From Beijerinckiaceae bacterium (GTDB taxonomy: Bacteria; Pseudomonadota; Alphaproteobacteria; Rhizobiales; Beijerinckiaceae): a DNA stretch of 64,000 nucleotides. A program made the translations under genes and the position numbers. Shown one piece after another: positions 3,069 through 35,861 of this stretch. Within the stretch, counting starts at the first letter, position 1; each line of letters opens with the position of its first letter. Location: the NCBI GenBank assembly GCA_021324915.1, contig JAJPIC010000012.1, positions 124,001-188,000 of the forward strand, written 5' to 3'. The notes below the pieces were generated by a model, which worked only from the letters and a program-made list of their open reading frames with translations, made no database searches and was not told the origin of the DNA.

Positions 3069-3890
3069 TCAAGACGCGAGGCGCTCCTGCTTGACGGCCA
3101 GGACTTCCATGCAGACGCGATAGCGCTCGCTTACACGATATTTGATCGGCCGGAATCCATGCTCTTCGAGAAGAGCGTGAAGGCGCTTGCGACTGAAATT
3201 GTGATAATGCTCGATCTCTCCCCAATAGGGATTGGCCTTGTTGGCATCGAGCAGCCGCCACACCATGTTGTCGATGTTCGGCATGGACAGAAACAAGACA
3301 CCATCCGGCTGCATGAGCCGATGCGCCGCCGCGAGCGCCGGCTTCGGATAGGGCATGTGCTCGAGCACGTCGGCCATGCTGATCACGCTGAATCTGCCGT
3401 TCGTGGCAAGATCGGCGAAATCCATGCAATAGGCTTCGTAGCCGAGGGCCCGGAGCGTCTCGACATTGGCCTTGCGCAGATCGATTCCGACGGGGCGAAA
3501 GCCGAATTCCTCGGCCGTGAAGAGCAGCGATCCGTTGCCGAAACCGACATCGAGCCAATCGCCGAGATCCGCTTGCTCCCCGATCCATTGGACCATTCGA
3601 GCGGAGACCGCGCGTTGACCCTCGATATCGTGGCCGACCGTCTGCCCGATCTGTGTCCGCCCGAAGATGAGGTTGAGTGCCGATTCGTCGAAATAGCCTT
3701 CGGTGAACACATGCGCGCAATCGGCGCATCCGAGCCAGGTCATGTCGGCGGGAATCTCCGGCCGATAGAGCGGATGCTGCGAACAATCGGCGCGGCGAAC
3801 GATGCGGAGATCCTTCCCGCTGCAGAGCGGGCATGAGTCATAGAGGATCCGAGCAGAGGTCTCGGCCTGTCCCGCTTCCAATAGCTGCAT
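3069..3890 (-). CDS. Zinc-ribbon class I SAM methyltransferase within the flagellar cluster
   Basis: The 273-aa protein has an N-terminal CxxC...CxxC pair (Cys20/23 and Cys55/58), suggesting a small zinc ribbon. A Rossmann methyltransferase domain follows, with motif I LDVGFGNGS (about 113-121), the acidic VGIDL strand and a VISMADVLEHMPYP motif typical of Methyltransf_11/23 enzymes. It lies between flgH and fliL in the same direction with gaps of 39 and 36 nt, so it is probably cotranscribed. The substrate is unknown. Candidates are a flagellar protein, or a sugar or lipid precursor; related ribbon-type enzymes often act in glycan synthesis. It is not FliB-like. Confidence 0.85.
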   Translation of the reverse strand: MQLLEAGQAETSARILYDSCPLCSGKDLRIVRRADCSQHPLYRPEIPADMTWLGCADCAHVFTEGYFDESALNLIFGRTQIGQTVGHDIEGQRAVSARMVQWIGEQADLGDWLDVGFGNGSLLFTAEEFGFRPVGIDLRKANVETLRALGYEAYCMDFADLATNGRFSVISMADVLEHMPYPKPALAAAHRLMQPDGVLFLSMPNIDNMVWRLLDANKANPYWGEIEHYHNFSRKRLHALLEEHGFRPIKYRVSERYRVCMEVLAVKQERLAS

Positions 3891-3929
3891 CTTGCCCCCG
3901 AATCTGCGGCGCGAACCGCCCCCAAGCCG

Positions 3930-4628
3930 CTACAACGGCTTGAAGCGATCCCAGATCTGCTGCCCGACCGCCGGCTGCTGCACTTCCATGATTCGGCCGC
4001 GACCGCCATAGGAGATGCGCGCCTCGGCAATTTTATCGTAGGCGACCGTATTGTCCTTCGATATGTCGCGCGGCCGCACGATGCCGGCGATATTGAGGAC
4101 GCGTAGCTCGTAATTGACGCGTACCTCCTGCGAGCCGCTGATGACGAGATTGCCGTTCGGCAGAACGTCCGTGACGACTGCGCCGACCGACAATTGGATC
4201 TTTTCCGAACGGTCGATCGTGCCCTGCCCCTGCGTCGACGACGAAGACGTCGTGTCGACCTGCGGATACCATTGGGTTTGCGAAGTCGCCTGCTGCAATT
4301 GATAATTAAGCCCGCCCTTGATCTCGGAATTCATCGCGCGATCGGTCGAATTGCCGAAGCTCGCGCTATCGTTGATGCCGATGTGGACGGTGATGACGTC
4401 GCCGATCTTGGCGGCGCGCGGATCGCTGAAAATATTCGACGGATTGCCGTCCCAGATCGAAAAGCGCGAGGGATGCTGGTTGGGCATATAGACCGCGGTC
4501 GCCACCGGCGCGACGTCCGTGTAGAGCCCCGTACCGACCGGCGTCATCGAGGGCTCGCGCCCGATGTCTTTGAGGTCGCCGGCGCAGGCCGCGAGCGGAA
4601 GAGCGAGGAGAACGAAAAGGCGTCTCAT
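3930..4628 (-). CDS. flgH: Flagellar L-ring lipoprotein FlgH
   Basis: FlgH forms the outer-membrane L ring around the rod. The 232-aa protein has a lipoprotein signal with lipobox LAAC (Cys15). The family core follows: DPRAAKIGDVITVHIGINDSA, a variable linker, then IQLSVGAVVTDVLPNGNLVISGSQEVRVN and the RPRDISKDNTV motif. The ATG overlaps the motE stop by 1 nt (TGATG), so translation is coupled to motE. Confidence 0.95.
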   Translation of the reverse strand: MRRLFVLLALPLAACAGDLKDIGREPSMTPVGTGLYTDVAPVATAVYMPNQHPSRFSIWDGNPSNIFSDPRAAKIGDVITVHIGINDSASFGNSTDRAMNSEIKGGLNYQLQQATSQTQWYPQVDTTSSSSTQGQGTIDRSEKIQLSVGAVVTDVLPNGNLVISGSQEVRVNYELRVLNIAGIVRPRDISKDNTVAYDKIAEARISYGGRGRIMEVQQPAVGQQIWDRFKPL

Positions 4629-29631: not shown

Positions 29632-30702
29632 TTAGGCGTCGACGCTCTCGTCGGTTTCGCCCGGATCGAGAATGCGCTGTGCGATGAGACCGGAATTCTC
29701 CCGGATCGCCTGTTCGATTCGGTCAGCGATCTCGGGATTGTTCTTCAAAAAGGCCTTGGCATTCTCGCGGCCCTGCCCGAGCCTCTGGCTGTCGTAGGAG
29801 AACCAGGCGCCGGATTTTTCGACGACGCCGGCTTTGACGCCGAGATCGATGAGCTCGCCCGACTTCGAAATGCCGGCCCCATACATAATGTCGAATTCGA
29901 CCTGCTTGAACGGGGGCGCGACCTTGTTCTTGACCACTTTCACCCGGGTCTGGTTGCCGACGACTTCCTCACGCTCCTTGATCGAGCCGATGCGGCGGAT
30001 GTCGAGGCGGACGGAAGCGTAGAATTTCAGCGCATTGCCGCCGGTTGTCGTCTCCGGGCTGCCGTAGAGCACGCCGATCTTCATGCGGATCTGGTTGATG
30101 AAGATCACCATGGTCTGCGAGCGCGAGATCGAAGCCGTGAGCTTGCGTAAAGCCTGGCTCATGAGTCGCGCCTGAAGGCCCGGCTGACTGTCGCCCATTT
30201 CGCCGTCGATTTCCGCCCGCGGCGTCAAGGCTGCGACCGAATCGACGACGAGCACGTCGATAGCCCCGGAGCGCACCAGCGTGTCGGTGATTTCGAGCGC
30301 CTGCTCGCCCGTATCGGGCTGCGAGATCAGAAGATCGTCGAGGTTGACGCCGAGCTTGCGCGCATAGACCGGATCGAGCGCATGTTCGGCATCGATGAAG
30401 GCGCAGACCCCGCCCCTCTTCTGCGCTTCCGCGATCACGTGGAGGGTGAGCGTCGTCTTGCCCGAAGATTCCGGCCCGTAGATCTCGATGACCCGCCCGC
30501 GAGGCAAGCCGCCGACGCCCAGCGCGATGTCGAGGCCCAAAGAACCCGTTGAGATCGTTTCGATTTCGATCGGCTTCTGGCTCTTGCCCAGCCGCATGAT
30601 CGAGCCTTTGCCGAAGCTGCGTTCGATCTGCGACAAGGCGGCATCGAGCGCCTTCGTCTTGTCCACGGATAGTCCTTCCACGAGGCGGAGATTCGCTGTC
30701 AT
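29632..30702 (-). CDS. recA: Recombinase RecA
   Basis: RecA drives strand exchange in homologous recombination and promotes LexA self-cleavage in the SOS response. The 356-aa protein has Walker A GPESSGKT (residues 76-83), Walker [23 protein letters not shown]-binding loop L1 [19 protein letters not shown] and loop L2 with [28 protein letters not shown]. It is full length with a typical acidic tail. Its promoter region has been split by an insertion element about 108 nt upstream of the start. Confidence 0.98.
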
Positions 30703-30767: not shown

Positions 30768-30811
30768 AATGTACCTCTTTTGTTCTTTCCTGCCAAGTTC
30801 TTTTTTTGTCC
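30768..30811 (-). promoter_or_regulatory. recA promoter with disrupted LexA (SOS) operator
   Basis: On the minus strand a -35 TTGGCA (30791-30796) and a -10 TACATT (30768-30773) are 17 nt apart, 66 nt before the recA start. Abutting the -35 is GAAC (30797-30800), then seven A, then GGAC (30808-30811). The alphaproteobacterial LexA box is GAAC-N7-GAAC. The outer half here is GGAC because its last bases come from the inserted IS (from 30810). Removing the IS and one 8-bp duplication restores a perfect GAAC-N7-GAAC. Confidence 0.75.
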
Positions 30812-30832
30812 CAACTATGCACTTTACAAACC
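30802..30832 (+). repeat. Left target duplication and left terminal inverted repeat of the IS
   Basis: The 8-bp direct repeat TTTTTTGT occupies 30802-30809. The left IS end (30810-30832) reads CCCAACTATGCACTTTACAA followed by ACC. It matches the inverted right end over 16 of its inner 17 positions; the six tip bases differ. Confidence 0.8.
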
Positions 30833-30852
30833 GGACAAAAGGCGTAGAGACA

Positions 30853-32105
30853 ATGGAGGCCAATGAGAGTCGCGCCACGGCTTCTAGAGTGATCCAGACG
30901 CTTGGCCCGGCTCGGCACGAATGTCGACTTGGCGGAGCCTTTAAAGTGCGCGTCGCGGATGATCTGCGAAGGTGTGTTGTTTTTTTTGGCTATCCAGACG
31001 CGACGCCCGGGAAAACCAGTTTTTAGAAGAGAATATAGGTATTGGAGATCTAACTTATACCATTGGATTGTTCCGCCTGTTGTCGGGCAAGAAACGAAAT
31101 CTTCCAATTTGTCATTCAGGCTCTATAGCCTTATTCCCTAGCGACGAAAAGATACCAGTAATTGATTGGAGAGATGCTTCTAGAAAGAAGGTCATTACGG
31201 TTGAGGGATTTTTGGTCGAAACACACAGTCTGCAAGGCCTTAGCGGAGCGCCGGTGTTTGTGCGCCCTCAAGCAGCCATCGATCCGGCTAAGGCTTTAGG
31301 AGTTGAGAAGAAAGGATGGCGACCCAGAGAAAGCCGCTTAATCATGTGGCCAATGGTCCAGCTTCGTTTGCTTGGATTGTGGCAAGGATCGTGGGATGCG
31401 CCTCCTGACCAAATACTCGCCTCGGAGCCAGGCACAGGCGGCGGCAGAGTGCCGATTGGTATGGGAGTCGTCGTTCCATGCTATAAGATCGTTGAGCTCC
31501 TCGACAGCCCTGAGGCAAAGAAGGATCGCGATGAGATCATCACGCGGCTTCAGCCTCAGATGTTCATACTAGAACACGGCAAAGTTTCAGAGACGCCAAT
31601 TAGTAGTCATATGTCCAAAAACGAGACGTCTATGACGGATGGCCCGAAACCGGAGAACAGCAAGCCATCGAGGATTTTTGCTCAGACTGCCCTGATTTGC
31701 GATTCCCTGTACACGGACATCGTAGGCAGATCGATGCTCATCGGCGTCTATACGGACGATTTTCGTGTCTTTCAATTTCCGACGACAATTATCGTAACGT
31801 TATTTCTTAGGATAGCCGGGGATGCGGGCACGTATGACATCGAATTTCGCGCCATCGGACCTAACGACGCTGCGCTTTTGCTTCCGAATAAAACAAGAAT
31901 TACCCTCTCGCCAGAACACGCTTATGAGCCAAAGGTTTTCAACAACTTGAAGATCCAAATTCAGTCTTCTGGATGGATGAAGTTTCAATGGAAGCCGCCG
32001 GGCCGCGATTGGGAAACTTTGGTTTCCTGCGACGTAAAATTGTTGGCTTTGCCAGAAACGAAGCCCGCTAAAGAGGCCGCCGCGAATGGGACAGAAGAAA
32101 GATGA
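30853..32105 (+). pseudogene. Broken trypsin-like peptidase passenger gene, continuing into a DUF6941-like domain
   Basis: A frame from ATG 30853 encodes about 57 residues ending VADDLRRCVVFFGYPDATPGK and then stops at 31026. A different frame then carries the C-terminal part of a trypsin-like peptidase: EENIGIGDLTYTIGLF, KKRNLPICHSGSIALFP and the serine motif GLSGAPVFV. In complete relatives the catalytic His and Asp lie between these two parts. Neither is visible here, so an internal deletion with frame change at about 31010-31025 is inferred. After the peptidase end (VVVPCYKIVELL) the frame runs on without a stop into a second domain. A product of the downstream frame alone would be an inactive peptidase remnant. 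Confidence 0.7.
31611..32105 (+). CDS. DUF6941-like domain, possibly translated separately
   Basis: The last 164 codons of the passenger frame, from ATG 31611, encode a beta-rich domain: IFAQTALICDSLYTDIVGRS, then LIGVYTDDFRVFQFPTTIIVTLFLRI and LKIQIQSSGWMKFQW. This resembles the DUF6941 pattern (an early ALxCD, a LIGI-type strand, and a jelly-roll-like end). It is in frame with the peptidase remnant, so it is either a fusion partner or a gene starting at 31611 or 31635. No good ribosome-binding site decides this. The function is unknown. Confidence 0.45.
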   Translation: MSKNETSMTDGPKPENSKPSRIFAQTALICDSLYTDIVGRSMLIGVYTDDFRVFQFPTTIIVTLFLRIAGDAGTYDIEFRAIGPNDAALLLPNKTRITLSPEHAYEPKVFNNLKIQIQSSGWMKFQWKPPGRDWETLVSCDVKLLALPETKPAKEAAANGTEER

Positions 32106-32262
32106 TACGCTCACCGAGGAAGAAATCGCGCGCCGGATGGACAATGCAGTGCGCCGAGCGCTTAACACTCGACCAGTCCTTTTGAAAGAGGTAGCTGGCA
32201 AGAGTCGGAGCGCAACGATAAAAAAACGCGCTAGAAAATCTCCTCGATCAAAGCAATCATAG
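32086..32262 (+). CDS. Small basic passenger protein (58 aa)
   Basis: The ATG at 32086 lies inside the end of the upstream gene in another frame (20-nt overlap). The protein begins MGQKKDDTLTEEEIARRMDN. It is helical in the first half (EEEIARRMDNAVRRALNTRP) and strongly basic in the second (KKRARKSPRSK). Similar short EExxRRxxxxxRRALNTxP proteins often follow trypsin-like peptidase genes in mobile DNA; the role is unknown. It is co-oriented with the passenger gene and convergent with the transposase. Confidence 0.6.
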   Translation: MGQKKDDTLTEEEIARRMDNAVRRALNTRPVLLKEVAGKSRSATIKKRARKSPRSKQS

Positions 32263-32318
32263 CTCTCATCGCCGCAAGATTTTTCTTGATCCTCACCTTT
32301 CGGTTTCTCATCACGAGA

Positions 32319-33242
32319 TCATCGATAGGTCAGGCGTTTCCCAGCCGCGCCGCGCACGGCACGTCGAGCGCGTTCTGTGTCGTCTATGCCCAGCTTCACG
32401 CGGTTCGAATAGCGGAAATCGAACTCGTTCAAATAAGCCTGCAAATGCTGTTCGCCACAGTGGTGATAAACGCCCGTAATTCCGCGCTTGAAAATGCCAA
32501 AAAAGCCTTCGACCGTGTTTGTCGTCGTCTCGCCGCGCGCATATTCGCCTGAGCCGTGATTGACGGCTTCATGTTTGGCGAATTTCTTTCCCGGCTCTTT
32601 GTACCACTGCGCTTCGTCAGTATTCAGCGTGCTATCTAGAACGACATGCGCGCCGAGGATTTTCTTGATCGTCGGAATGGTGAGGTCGTCCACCTTGATC
32701 GAAACGGAACGGCCGCCGCGCTCGACCATCGTAAGAACCTTGCGTTTGGTCGCGGTACCGCGCTGGCTCTGCCAACCTTTGCCGCTTACGAAAACGTCTT
32801 TCGGCTTGCCAATATAAGTTTCGTCCACCTCGACCGTCTTGCCCTTGCCGCCTAGCGGTTCGGGGTCGCGATCAGCCATCGCTTCGCGAACGCGATGCGC
32901 AAGAAACCAAGCAGTCCGGTAAGAGCCGATTCCCAGAGAGCGCATCAATTGGTGAGCGGAAATGCCTTTTTTGCTTCCGGCCATCAGTCGAAAAGCAAGA
33001 GCCCATTTTTGTAGCGGAAGGTGACTCGATTCCATCACTGAGCCGACGGTCACTGAAAATTGCTCTCCACAAGCCCGACATTTGTAAACGCCCTGACGGT
33101 GGGCTTTGCCCTCTAGCTTTGTAGCTTCGTTCACGACACCGCAATGCGGGCAAACCGGGCCGTTTGGCCAACGGATGCCTTCAAAATAGGTGCGTGCGGC
33201 ATCTTCATCGTGGAAAATAGGATCGGAAAGATCGACTGACAT
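32319..33242 (-). CDS. IS1595-family transposase (ISXO2-like)
   Basis: The 307-aa protein has an N-terminal zinc ribbon (CPHC ... CRAC, about residues 33-61), a helical region, then an ISXO2-type DDE/DDN catalytic domain. This shows the first Asp in VEVDETYIGK, the second in HVVLDSTLNTDE, and NTVEGFFGIFKRGITGVYHHCGEQHLQAYLNEFDFRYSNR at the third site. It looks intact and full length, so the element may still be mobile. A TTGACA (33287-33292) in the right inverted repeat is a likely -35, with a weaker CATTGT -10 at 18 nt spacing. Confidence 0.95.
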   Translation of the reverse strand: MSVDLSDPIFHDEDAARTYFEGIRWPNGPVCPHCGVVNEATKLEGKAHRQGVYKCRACGEQFSVTVGSVMESSHLPLQKWALAFRLMAGSKKGISAHQLMRSLGIGSYRTAWFLAHRVREAMADRDPEPLGGKGKTVEVDETYIGKPKDVFVSGKGWQSQRGTATKRKVLTMVERGGRSVSIKVDDLTIPTIKKILGAHVVLDSTLNTDEAQWYKEPGKKFAKHEAVNHGSGEYARGETTTNTVEGFFGIFKRGITGVYHHCGEQHLQAYLNEFDFRYSNRVKLGIDDTERARRAVRGAAGKRLTYR

Positions 33243-33282
33243 TTGAAGCTCCTATGTTCCGAACAATGCCAGAACCCAAGTA

Positions 33283-33313
33283 GGTTTGTCAAGTGCATAA
33301 GTTCCTTTTTTGT
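33283..33313 (-). repeat. Right terminal inverted repeat and right target duplication of the IS
   Basis: The right end (33283-33305), read outside-in on the minus strand, is GGAACTTATGCACTTGACAA followed by ACC. The second copy of the 8-bp duplication, TTTTTTGT, follows at 33306-33313. Confidence 0.8.
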
Positions 33314-33315
33314 TC
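33301..33315. promoter_or_regulatory. Perfect LexA-type box created at the IS right junction
   Basis: GTTC (33301-33304), seven bases (C then six T) and GTTC (33312-33315) form an exact GTTC-N7-GTTC. The left half is from the IS end, the right half is the surviving half of the old recA operator. It ends 8 nt from the transposase -35 TTGACA, so LexA binding here could influence transposase transcription. Confidence 0.55.
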
Positions 33316-33430: not shown

Positions 33431-35538
33431 CTATTTTCCGAGCGCGGCGCTCTGCTGATCGAGCCAGGCAAGAACCTTCTTCCATTGGGCTTCGCCCGGA
33501 TATTGCGCGACCAATGGCGCGAGAATGGCGCGGGCTTGCACGAGCGCGGTTTGTGCATTCGCTGAATCGCCCGCTTTCTTGTAGACGAACGCGAGCTTCG
33601 CATAGAAAACCGCGAGTTCGCCCTGCAAGCCGACGTTGCCGGGATTGGATTTCGCGAGGCGAACCATGATTGCGAGGCTTGCCTGATAGGATTTGAGCGC
33701 GTCGGGCAGATTGCCCTCTTCCAAATGTGCATCGCCGACCTTCTCGTACGATACAGAAAGGTCGCGCTGCCAATCGCCATTGCCGGGATCGGATGTCGCC
33801 AGGCGATCGCTTATGTCGAGGGCCGCCAGATAGGATTTCAGCGCCCCGGGCGGATTTCGCTCCGCAAACTGCACATTTCCGGTCTTTTCGTATGCGATCG
33901 AAAGATCGCGCTGCCAGACGAGATTGCTGCGATCGGATCTCGTCAGGCGCTCTCGGATGGCGAGAGATGCCTGATAGGATTTCAACGCTTCGGGCAGATT
34001 GGCTTGCGCGACCTCGACATTGCCGATTTTTTCGTAAGCGACCGAAAGATCGAGCTGCCATTCGGCATTCTCGGGATCGGTCTGGACAAGCGGCAAGAGG
34101 ATATCGCGCTTGGCCTCGTAGGACGTCAATGCCGCGGCAAGATCGCCTTCCGCCATTTGAACATCGCCGATCTTTTCATGAGCGATGCCGAGATCGTCCT
34201 GCCAGCGGATATTGCGCGAATCGGATTTGACCAGGCGCTCGGCTATCGCAAGGCCAGCTTCATAGGATTGCAACGCCTCGAGCAGATCCTTCTGCGCGAC
34301 CTGCACGTCGCCTATTCTCTCATGTGAGCTCGAGAGGTCGCGCAGCCATTGGGCATCGCCGGATTTTGCGAAGCGCTCGGCGATGGCAAGGCCGGCTTGG
34401 AAAGATTTGAGCGCCTCCGCCAGATTTCCCTCAGCGAGCCGGACCGCGCCGATCCTGTCGCATTCGATATTGATGCCATATTCCAAGCGGGCATAAAGTT
34501 GATCCGCGTTGCCCGGCTTTGCGGCGAGCATGGTCTCGTAGATCTGCTTGGCCTCACCGCCGGCGGCGAGCGCACCCGCCGTATCGCCGATTGCCAGCAG
34601 CGAACGGGCGGTCTCGTCGAGCGCCGCCGCCTCGCTCAGCCTGAGATCCGGCGTGACCTGCCCGGATTGAATCAATTGCTCCTGCAAGCCGCGGGCCCGA
34701 TCGAGTCCTTGACGAGATTGGCGGGAACACCCTTCGCGTTGCGGAATTTTTGCGCCAGATCGAAAACGAGGCCGTTCGCCGTCTTGGTGGCCAGCGCCAG
34801 CGTCGTCTCGGCGCGCTGGCGCTCGCGAACCGCGATACCCCTTTGCCAAAAGGCGAGCCCGGCAAGAGCGAGCGCGAGGATGAGGCCTGCCGCCAAACTG
34901 CCTGTAAGAACATTGCGGCGGCGGCTCGCCGCGCGCCGGCTCTCGAGGATGAAGGCCTGCGTTGCTTCTGTCGGCAGCGGCGCGGCGGCTGGGCGTGCGG
35001 CAATCCAGCTTTCGGCTTCCTCCAAAGCGGGCGAACGCAAGAGCAGTCCTGCCGACCTGCCGGCTTCCGCCCAGCGGCGCCCCGCCTCGCCAAATTCGGT
35101 ATGTCTCCTGATCCAGTCGATGTCTGTGCCCAGCGCCTCGCAGAGCCGATCGAAGCTCTCGTCGAACTTTGGCTCCTCGTCGAAGAAGATGAAATTGAGC
35201 CGCGCCAGCGGCTCCGGGACCTGTGTGTCCACGCGCCTGACAACGACCGGAGCGAAGCGCTTGTTGAGCGAGGCGGCGAAAGCCACTTCCTTGGCGCAGA
35301 CGGGAGAGGCAACCGAATCCGGGCTCAGCACGAAGATGACCGTGTCGGCGGCGGCAATGAGCGACTGGATGCGCGCCCACCAATCCTCGAAGGCGTAGAT
35401 CTCGCTGCGATCGATCAGCGGCTCGAATTGGCGTTGCTTGAGGGCCGCGTCGAGCCGATCGGCAAAGGTCATATCCTTGCGCGAATAGGAAATGAAGACC
35501 TTGGCTCGAGGTCCCTCGCCCGCAGCGTCGCTCGCCAT
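33431..35538 (-). pseudogene. TIR-transmembrane-TPR protein, interrupted by a frameshift
   Basis: A repaired product would be about 702 aa. Residues 12-120 form a TIR domain (VFISYSRKD at 14-22; an FED motif at 50-52 that lines up with the catalytic Glu of NAD-cleaving TIR domains). A linker and one membrane helix (about 210-231) follow. The frame reads to NLVKD (about residue 277) and then into a stop. The continuation LDRARGLQEQLIQSG and six or seven TPR-like repeats (for example ALKSYQASLAIRERL) is in another frame. A 1-nt or 4-nt loss at about 34705-34709 explains this. Such TIR-TPR membrane proteins are frequent in alphaproteobacteria; their roles are mostly unknown, with immunity or signalling possible. 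Confidence 0.82.
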
Positions 35539-35861
35539 TGGGGCCCGTTCTGCAACTCAACAAAATATTAAGAGCGGACACTTAAGCCGAAATTTCGGGA
35601 ATTTCAAAGAACTCCACGCAGGCGGGCGATTGCGCGCCCGCTTTTCCCGCGCGCGCGGGAAGAAGCAACGCGAATATGTCATGCTACGGAGATTTCGGCT
35701 CTCTATCCTGCCTTATTGCACCTATGGTCATTAATCACGGGATTTGCGAAATTCCAAAATTCATTGATAGGCAGGTCGCCGCGCCGACAAGTTTCAGCCC
35801 AAGCGCTTGCTCGGGACTTCCCGCGCACATTTCTCGTACCTGATTTTTTTATAGGTGATTT
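35539..35861. other. Intergenic region with GC palindrome
   Basis: This 323-nt stretch separates the divergent TIR-TPR and exported-protein genes. It contains a perfect 18-bp palindrome TTCCCGCGCGCGCGGGAA (35644-35661) and two similar short segments, AATTTCGGGAATTTC (about 35588) and GAAATTCCAAAATTC (about 35748). No RNA gene is evident. The rightward gene has an AGGTG ribosome-binding site at its start. Confidence 0.5.

Follow-up and report, generated by a model that had tools for sequence, protein, structure and literature searches.

A transposon in the LexA operator of recA occupies the same base pair in nine bacterial genomes and appears to seek out this site

Is a small mobile element that sits inside the LexA operator of recA there by accident, or does it seek out this operator? 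We examined a 64,000-nt stretch of DNA (here called the window; positions 124,001 to 188,000 of contig JAJPIC010000012.1) from a Beijerinckiaceae bacterium, the genome referred to here as G000. Other genomes are also given G numbers, and individual loci L numbers. The initial annotation of the window claimed that an IS splits the LexA operator of recA, that joining the flanks after removal of the IS and one duplication gives GTTC-T7-GTTC touching the recA -35, and that the half-site distal to recA has become GTCC. It also proposed that this change could weaken LexA repression and raise basal expression of recA.

We found that these statements about the sequence are correct. The relevant features of the window are:

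29632 to 30702, minus strand: recA (356 aa; PF00154, E 9.5e-147, and PF21096)
30768 to 30773, minus strand: recA -10, TACATT, 17 nt from the -35
30791 to 30796, minus strand: recA -35, TTGGCA; TTG is found at this position against the box in relatives
30797 to 30811: the recA LexA operator as it stands, GTTC (30797-30800)-T7-GTCC (30808-30811), in which the half-site distal to recA is altered because the IS end supplies its last two bases
30802 to 30809: target-site duplication on the recA side, TTTTTTGT
30810 to 33305, minus strand: IS1595-family element of 2,496 bp, with its transposase end distal to recA
30810 to 30832: passenger-side terminal inverted repeat, CCCAACTATGCACTTTACAAACC
30972 to 32105, plus strand: passenger ORF, part of a trypsin-like-protease-like protein followed by a DUF6941-like stretch (PF22091, E 2e-5, 25.4 bits, just under the cut-off of 27); 28% identical over about 190 residues to the Trypsin_2-like passenger of the element in G196; we infer that its N-terminal part is frameshifted or decayed, with an overlapping ORF at 30853-31026 in another frame
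32086 to 32262, plus strand: 58-codon ORF convergent to the transposase, with an RRALNTPPKPTKELVGKTERA-like motif; similar small ORFs are in the elements of G006, G244, G114, G256 and G210, and no Pfam match was found; a possible accessory protein
32319 to 33242, minus strand: IS1595-family transposase (307 aa), a zinc ribbon (PF12760, E 3.8e-15) and an ISXO2-like DDE domain (PF12762, E 6.7e-35)
33261 to 33275, minus strand: GTTC-TGGCATT-GTTC in the transposase promoter, a putative LexA box over the -10 region
33287 to 33292, minus strand: putative transposase -35, TTGACA, inside the terminal repeat
33283 to 33305: transposase-side terminal inverted repeat, GGAACTTATGCACTTGACAAACC (read on the minus strand)
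33301 to 33315: perfect GTTC-CTTTTTT-GTTC recreated at the far junction, half from the IS end and half from the split recA box
33306 to 33313: target-site duplication on the far side, TTTTTTGT

The two copies of the duplication are identical (8/8), and the 23-nt ends of the element are imperfect inverted repeats. Joining the flanks with one duplication gives GAACAAAAAAAGAACTTGGCA on the recA strand; that is, GAACAAAAAAAGAAC, a perfect box that fits the alphaproteobacterial LexA motif GTTC-N7-GTTC (PMC12700426), touching TTGGCA. The box as it now stands is GGAC-N7-GAAC on that strand. The perfect box at the far junction, which the initial annotation did not mention, is just upstream of the transposase and of its putative -35; among related elements it is seen only where the end reads GGAAC (G000, G006 and G256). 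It and the box in the transposase promoter are the only GTTC-N7-GTTC in the window. Beyond the element, a minus-strand ORF at 33431-35581 encodes a protein that, judged by eye, has an N-terminal TIR-like stretch and TPR-like repeats.

We next asked whether relatives without the IS have the box, because their lacking it would have argued against the initial annotation. We read about 330 nt upstream of 30 recA loci (including that of G000), the best 30 of 57 genomes with a match. A perfect GAAC-N7-GAAC was found in 18, and in 11 of these it was GAACAAAAAAAGAAC directly against TTG. Of the other 12, two carry the IS (G000 and G006), one is cut by a contig end, and nine (L037, L038, L039, L041, L045, L060, L061, L064 and L065) have no perfect box and no sign there of this IS. 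That is, many relatives have the box, but the condition that would have counted against the initial annotation is partly fulfilled. In the genus of G000, G005 and G004 are intact, G001 and G008 (sisters of G000) and G007 lack a perfect box, G000 and G006 carry the element, and no recA was recovered for G002, G003, G009 and G010. It is possible that recA has left SOS control repeatedly, and control of recA by LexA may be dispensable in this genus anyway.

We also searched 397 family genomes for the wider operator pattern, which occurs in 218. GGAC or GCAC in place of the distal GAAC is seen in at least six genomes, among them five IS carriers (G000, G006, G196, G239 and G244) and G155, which is outside the set inspected for the IS; G064, G215 and G252, also outside that set, show AGAC or AAAC.

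The insertion in G000 is not the only one of its kind. Transposases with 72-100% identity to that in the window (BLAST, best segment) were found in 11 of the 397 family genomes (G000, G006, G070, G114, G196, G210, G239, G244, G256, G275 and G336). A scan of GTDB genomes added one relative with 62% identity, in a metagenomic alphaproteobacterium, OFTM273; five other loci from that scan were judged by length to be the same contigs as G336, G196, G256, G210 and G244. In seven of these 12 genomes (G000, G006, G239, G196, G244, G114 and OFTM273) the element is in the recA operator with both junctions on one piece, as verified by script, and the duplications match at 8 of 8 positions in six and at 7 of 8 in G244. 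In two (G210 and G256) it is in the recA operator with the junctions on two contigs. In G275 the element has an GAACAAAAAA flank but the recA contig is truncated, and in G336 and G070 the element is elsewhere. That is, 9 of the 11 members with a resolved site are in the recA operator, and in each the duplication starts at the same base, at the AC of the distal GAAC (GA|ACAAAAAA). The distal half-site GAAC has become GGAC, GCAC or CCAC in all nine. Seven have the transposase end away from recA, whereas G114 and OFTM273 are reversed. There is usually one clade copy per genome. In contrast, the arrangement at recA in G006 (L095, 3111-8202) is complex, with two identical inverted transposase copies, apparently a nested second element, and another IS-like insertion (transposase-like ORFs at 3651-4405, judged by eye) in one passenger region.

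We looked for further members. An order-wide search gave a match in 44 of 397 genomes, none over 58% identity except that of the window itself. A search of 39 genomes of the genus g18 found none beyond the three already identified, and a plasmid search returned 35 records, all under 60% identity; that is, there was no plasmid carrier of the clade in that collection.

The next question was that of INDEPENDENCE. G196 and G220 are a natural empty-site pair. The recA-side flank is 97.2% identical, the far side is 95.6% and 97.4% identical over two long stretches, and the alignments overlap by exactly the 8 duplicated bases of GAACAAAAAATGAAC, proving insertion into an intact box. Spacer variants of the host are reproduced in the duplication (ACAAAAAT in G210 and ACAAAATC in G114). 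Operators are intact in same-genus genomes (G005, G004, G220, G027, G106, G060, G073 and G035). The transposase tree does not follow the recA tree, although several transposase nodes are weakly supported, and G244 (at recA) and G336 (at another site) have nearly the same transposase; that of G336 is also among the closest to that of G000. G000 and G006 could in principle share an ancestral insertion, but G005 and G004 fall between them on the recA tree with intact boxes. In addition, the passengers mostly differ: a trypsin-like protein in G196, an HNH-like ORF in G239, and others without a Pfam match, although those of G000 and G196 are distant homologues (28% identity). A possible role of the passengers in defence received little support; of seven proteins scanned there was one weak match, to PDC-S45, in the passenger of G196.

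The preference for this site is not absolute. Nine genomes searched (not including G000, G114 and OFTM273) contain 3 to 14 copies of GAACAAAAAA each, counting the flank of the element itself. In the carriers with that 10-mer whose recA start could be read, the occupied copy is the one at recA. Recognition must therefore reach beyond the 10-mer, to the full operator, its promoter setting or LexA. However, the site in G114 is GAACAAAATCCGCTT, which is not a perfect box and has a poor second half-site. Furthermore, two clade members are at sites without a LexA box, G336 (duplication AATGAGTA; its own recA start is off its contig) and G070 (about AATCGAAA, a broken copy), even though the recA box of G070 is intact.

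We found that some more distant members of the family are associated with LexA boxes in another register. Among 78 distinct transposase loci below 70% identity (OFTM273 among them), 7 have a perfect GTTC-N7-GTTC in an 80-nt zone between -125 and -45 of the transposase start, which spans the end of the element. The far flanks of the 87 loci analyzed gave 3 boxes in 111,691 nt, so about 0.17 would be expected; the reversed pattern gave none near. Five of these seven, and G007 at its non-transposase end, have the box, then exactly four bases, then the duplicated 8-mer (G289, G095, G204, G262, G003 and G007). The copies are identical (8 of 8) at each site, whereas the 8-mers themselves are unrelated (CAACAATC, CCCTTCCT, CGACCGGG, AACAACGG, CAAACGCT and CGCTTTTG). 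These six sites were checked because a box had been seen there. The other two of the seven (L104 and L197) are at other distances. In a scan of offsets, a transposase-end TIR was found in 68 of 87 loci; of 60 scanned below 70% identity, 4 have a box with at least 7/8 half-site letters at offset 12 and no other offset has more than one. That scan missed the ends of L155 and L153 (L127), and the box of G007 is at the end it did not cover. The remaining 71 of 78 loci have no perfect box in the zone scanned, so this is a habit of some branches only, and the notion that all IS1595 relatives target LexA boxes is not supported.

Two or three of these six sites are at comM (Mg-chelatase family). Distant relatives (L145, L147, L155 and L206) are beside the LexA box of comM in G007 and G204 and probably in G003, where the box and a comM gene with the matching 8-mer are on two contigs and where there is apparently a tandem of elements sharing the 8-mer CAAACGCT; the G003 case is inferred. 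One imperfect box at the same distance is by a UvrD-type helicase gene (L076). Some other relatives use AT-rich sites of the type AGG-N8-CCT, and at two sites of this type (L110 and L073) two IS ends face each other across exactly 8 bases, indicating tandem insertions.

The transposase promoter of the clade also contains a conserved GTTC-N7-GTTC. It is perfect in 8 of 12 elements, has one half-site change in three (G006, GTTT; G210, GTCC; G256, TTTC), and is absent in OFTM273. In 52 non-clade rows (some loci appear twice) no perfect box is inside the promoter, those found being in the flank. In an alignment of 11 clade promoters, the eight half-site columns are identical in 10 or 11 of 11, and the seven spacer columns in 4 to 11 of 11, two of them being invariant. 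Overlap with a -10 element may explain part of this conservation. A lexA gene is present in the host (G000, contig 28), with a GTTC-N7-GTTC 100 nt from the start of its DNA-binding-domain match. Genome-wide, GTTC-N7-GTTC is not in excess in G000 (72, compared to 99 for the reversed control), so a lone match proves little.

Based on these results, the explanation that we favor, with reasonable confidence, is that the element belongs to a clade of IS1595-family transposons that insert preferentially, and to the base, into the LexA operator of recA, in either orientation. What the sequences demonstrate is the shared insertion point, the duplications, the empty-site pair and the alteration of the recA-distal half-site at the nine occupied sites. 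The rest we infer. We infer that the transposase, alone or with help from operator-bound LexA, recognizes the operator, because other copies of GAACAAAAAA in these genomes are not the ones occupied. We also infer that the occupied operators bind LexA poorly, so that recA would be partly or fully uncoupled from the SOS circuit while its -35 and -10 stay intact. Lastly, we infer that the transposase is itself under LexA control, so that the element would move under DNA damage, when LexA is cleaved and operators are free. LexA binding, induction by DNA damage and derepression of recA are all inferred from sequence alone. The difference between the register inside the box and that 4 nt beside it fits awkwardly with one mode of recognition. 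The initial interpretation was partly supported: the IS did land inside the operator and change one half-site base (GAAC to GGAC on the recA strand), and weaker repression by LexA with higher basal recA is plausible but inferred from the sequence alone. Reading the insertion as a single accident is too small, and a plain accident was rejected once G006 and then other genera showed the same base.

It is possible, though unlikely, that the transposase simply prefers an 8-mer such as ACAAAAAA next to GA, which the recA operator happens to offer, and that LexA plays no part. Duplications in the recA clade are A-tract-like, and the AGG-N8-CCT sites are AT-rich. In contrast, the unoccupied copies of GAACAAAAAA, and the six distant relatives that keep only the box and the 4-nt distance while the 8-mer is free, disfavor preference for a 10-mer alone. 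A longer motif (the whole operator) read by the transposase itself remains fully possible and is part of the explanation we favor. It is similarly unlikely that insertions occur widely and that those in the recA operator are kept because they free recA from LexA or place it near a useful passenger. All nine occupied operators lose the same half-site, three same-genus species show neither IS nor perfect box, and the nine sites are natural survivors that selection could have enriched. However, selection would accept many base positions and many IS families, whereas the sites seen here, which do not come from a systematic search for other IS families at recA, show one clade, one base, an 8-bp duplication and both orientations; in addition, loss of the operator could be had by point mutation. 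A single ancestral insertion, inherited or spread with the recA region by recombination, is very unlikely: although eight of the nine carriers are one family and three pairs share a genus (G000/G006, G196/G244 and G114/G210), the site is empty in G220, the near-identical sister of G196, spacer variants and orientation differ, and the recA and transposase trees disagree.

The element has the hallmarks of the IS1595 family of insertion sequences, including the zinc ribbon plus DDE domain, terminal inverted repeats, 8-bp duplications and passenger genes. A defined chromosomal target is not known to us for this family, and searches of the open-access literature, which leaves out most subscription papers, listed among their top hits no report of IS1595 elements at recA or LexA operators, though some of these searches concerned LexA boxes or SOS-regulated transposases more generally. 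This is an otherwise ordinary transposon family with an extraordinary target. The element works like a targeted transposon, with one conserved chromosomal site. Tn7-like transposons insert at attTn7 by glmS. The Tn5053 family are hunters of res sites (PMC7765201). No known target-selector protein (such as TnsD in Tn7) was recognized here; the larger passengers differ and show no match to such a family, and the small ORF shared by at least six elements has no Pfam match. The target here is a regulatory operator that the insertion alters.

There are also SOS-regulated mobile elements, including ISCR1 and ISCR8, whose transposases are repressed by LexA (PMC13393415), and integron integrases (PMC3108266). 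The putative LexA box in the clade described here similarly overlaps the -10 region of the transposase promoter. For the ISCR elements, control by LexA is shown by EMSA and reporter fusions in E. coli, whereas here it is only a conserved motif, and those elements are not described there as targeting LexA boxes. Changing one terminal triplet of one half-site in ISCR elements abolished the LexA shift, a parallel for the binding step inferred here, but with the E. coli LexA and a different box.

A broader notion, which we regard as tentative, is that a group of alphaproteobacterial IS1595-type transposons uses the LexA operator, or LexA bound to it, as its landing signal. In this view, one branch enters the recA operator itself and cuts recA loose from the SOS repressor, other branches land exactly 4 nt beside the LexA boxes of comM and other genes, and the recA branch keeps its own transposase under a LexA box, closing a loop between DNA damage, transposition and the SOS switch.

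Target-specific transposons are few, and Tn7 and the res-site hunters choose sites where insertion does little harm. Here the site is the control switch of the central DNA-repair gene, and each of nine insertions changes the same half of it. If LexA operators are the landing signal, then transposition, DNA damage and SOS control are tied together, and nature offers nine parallel cases of a remodelled recA operator, as well as a testable case of a repressor-binding site, or a repressor, acting as a target for transposition.
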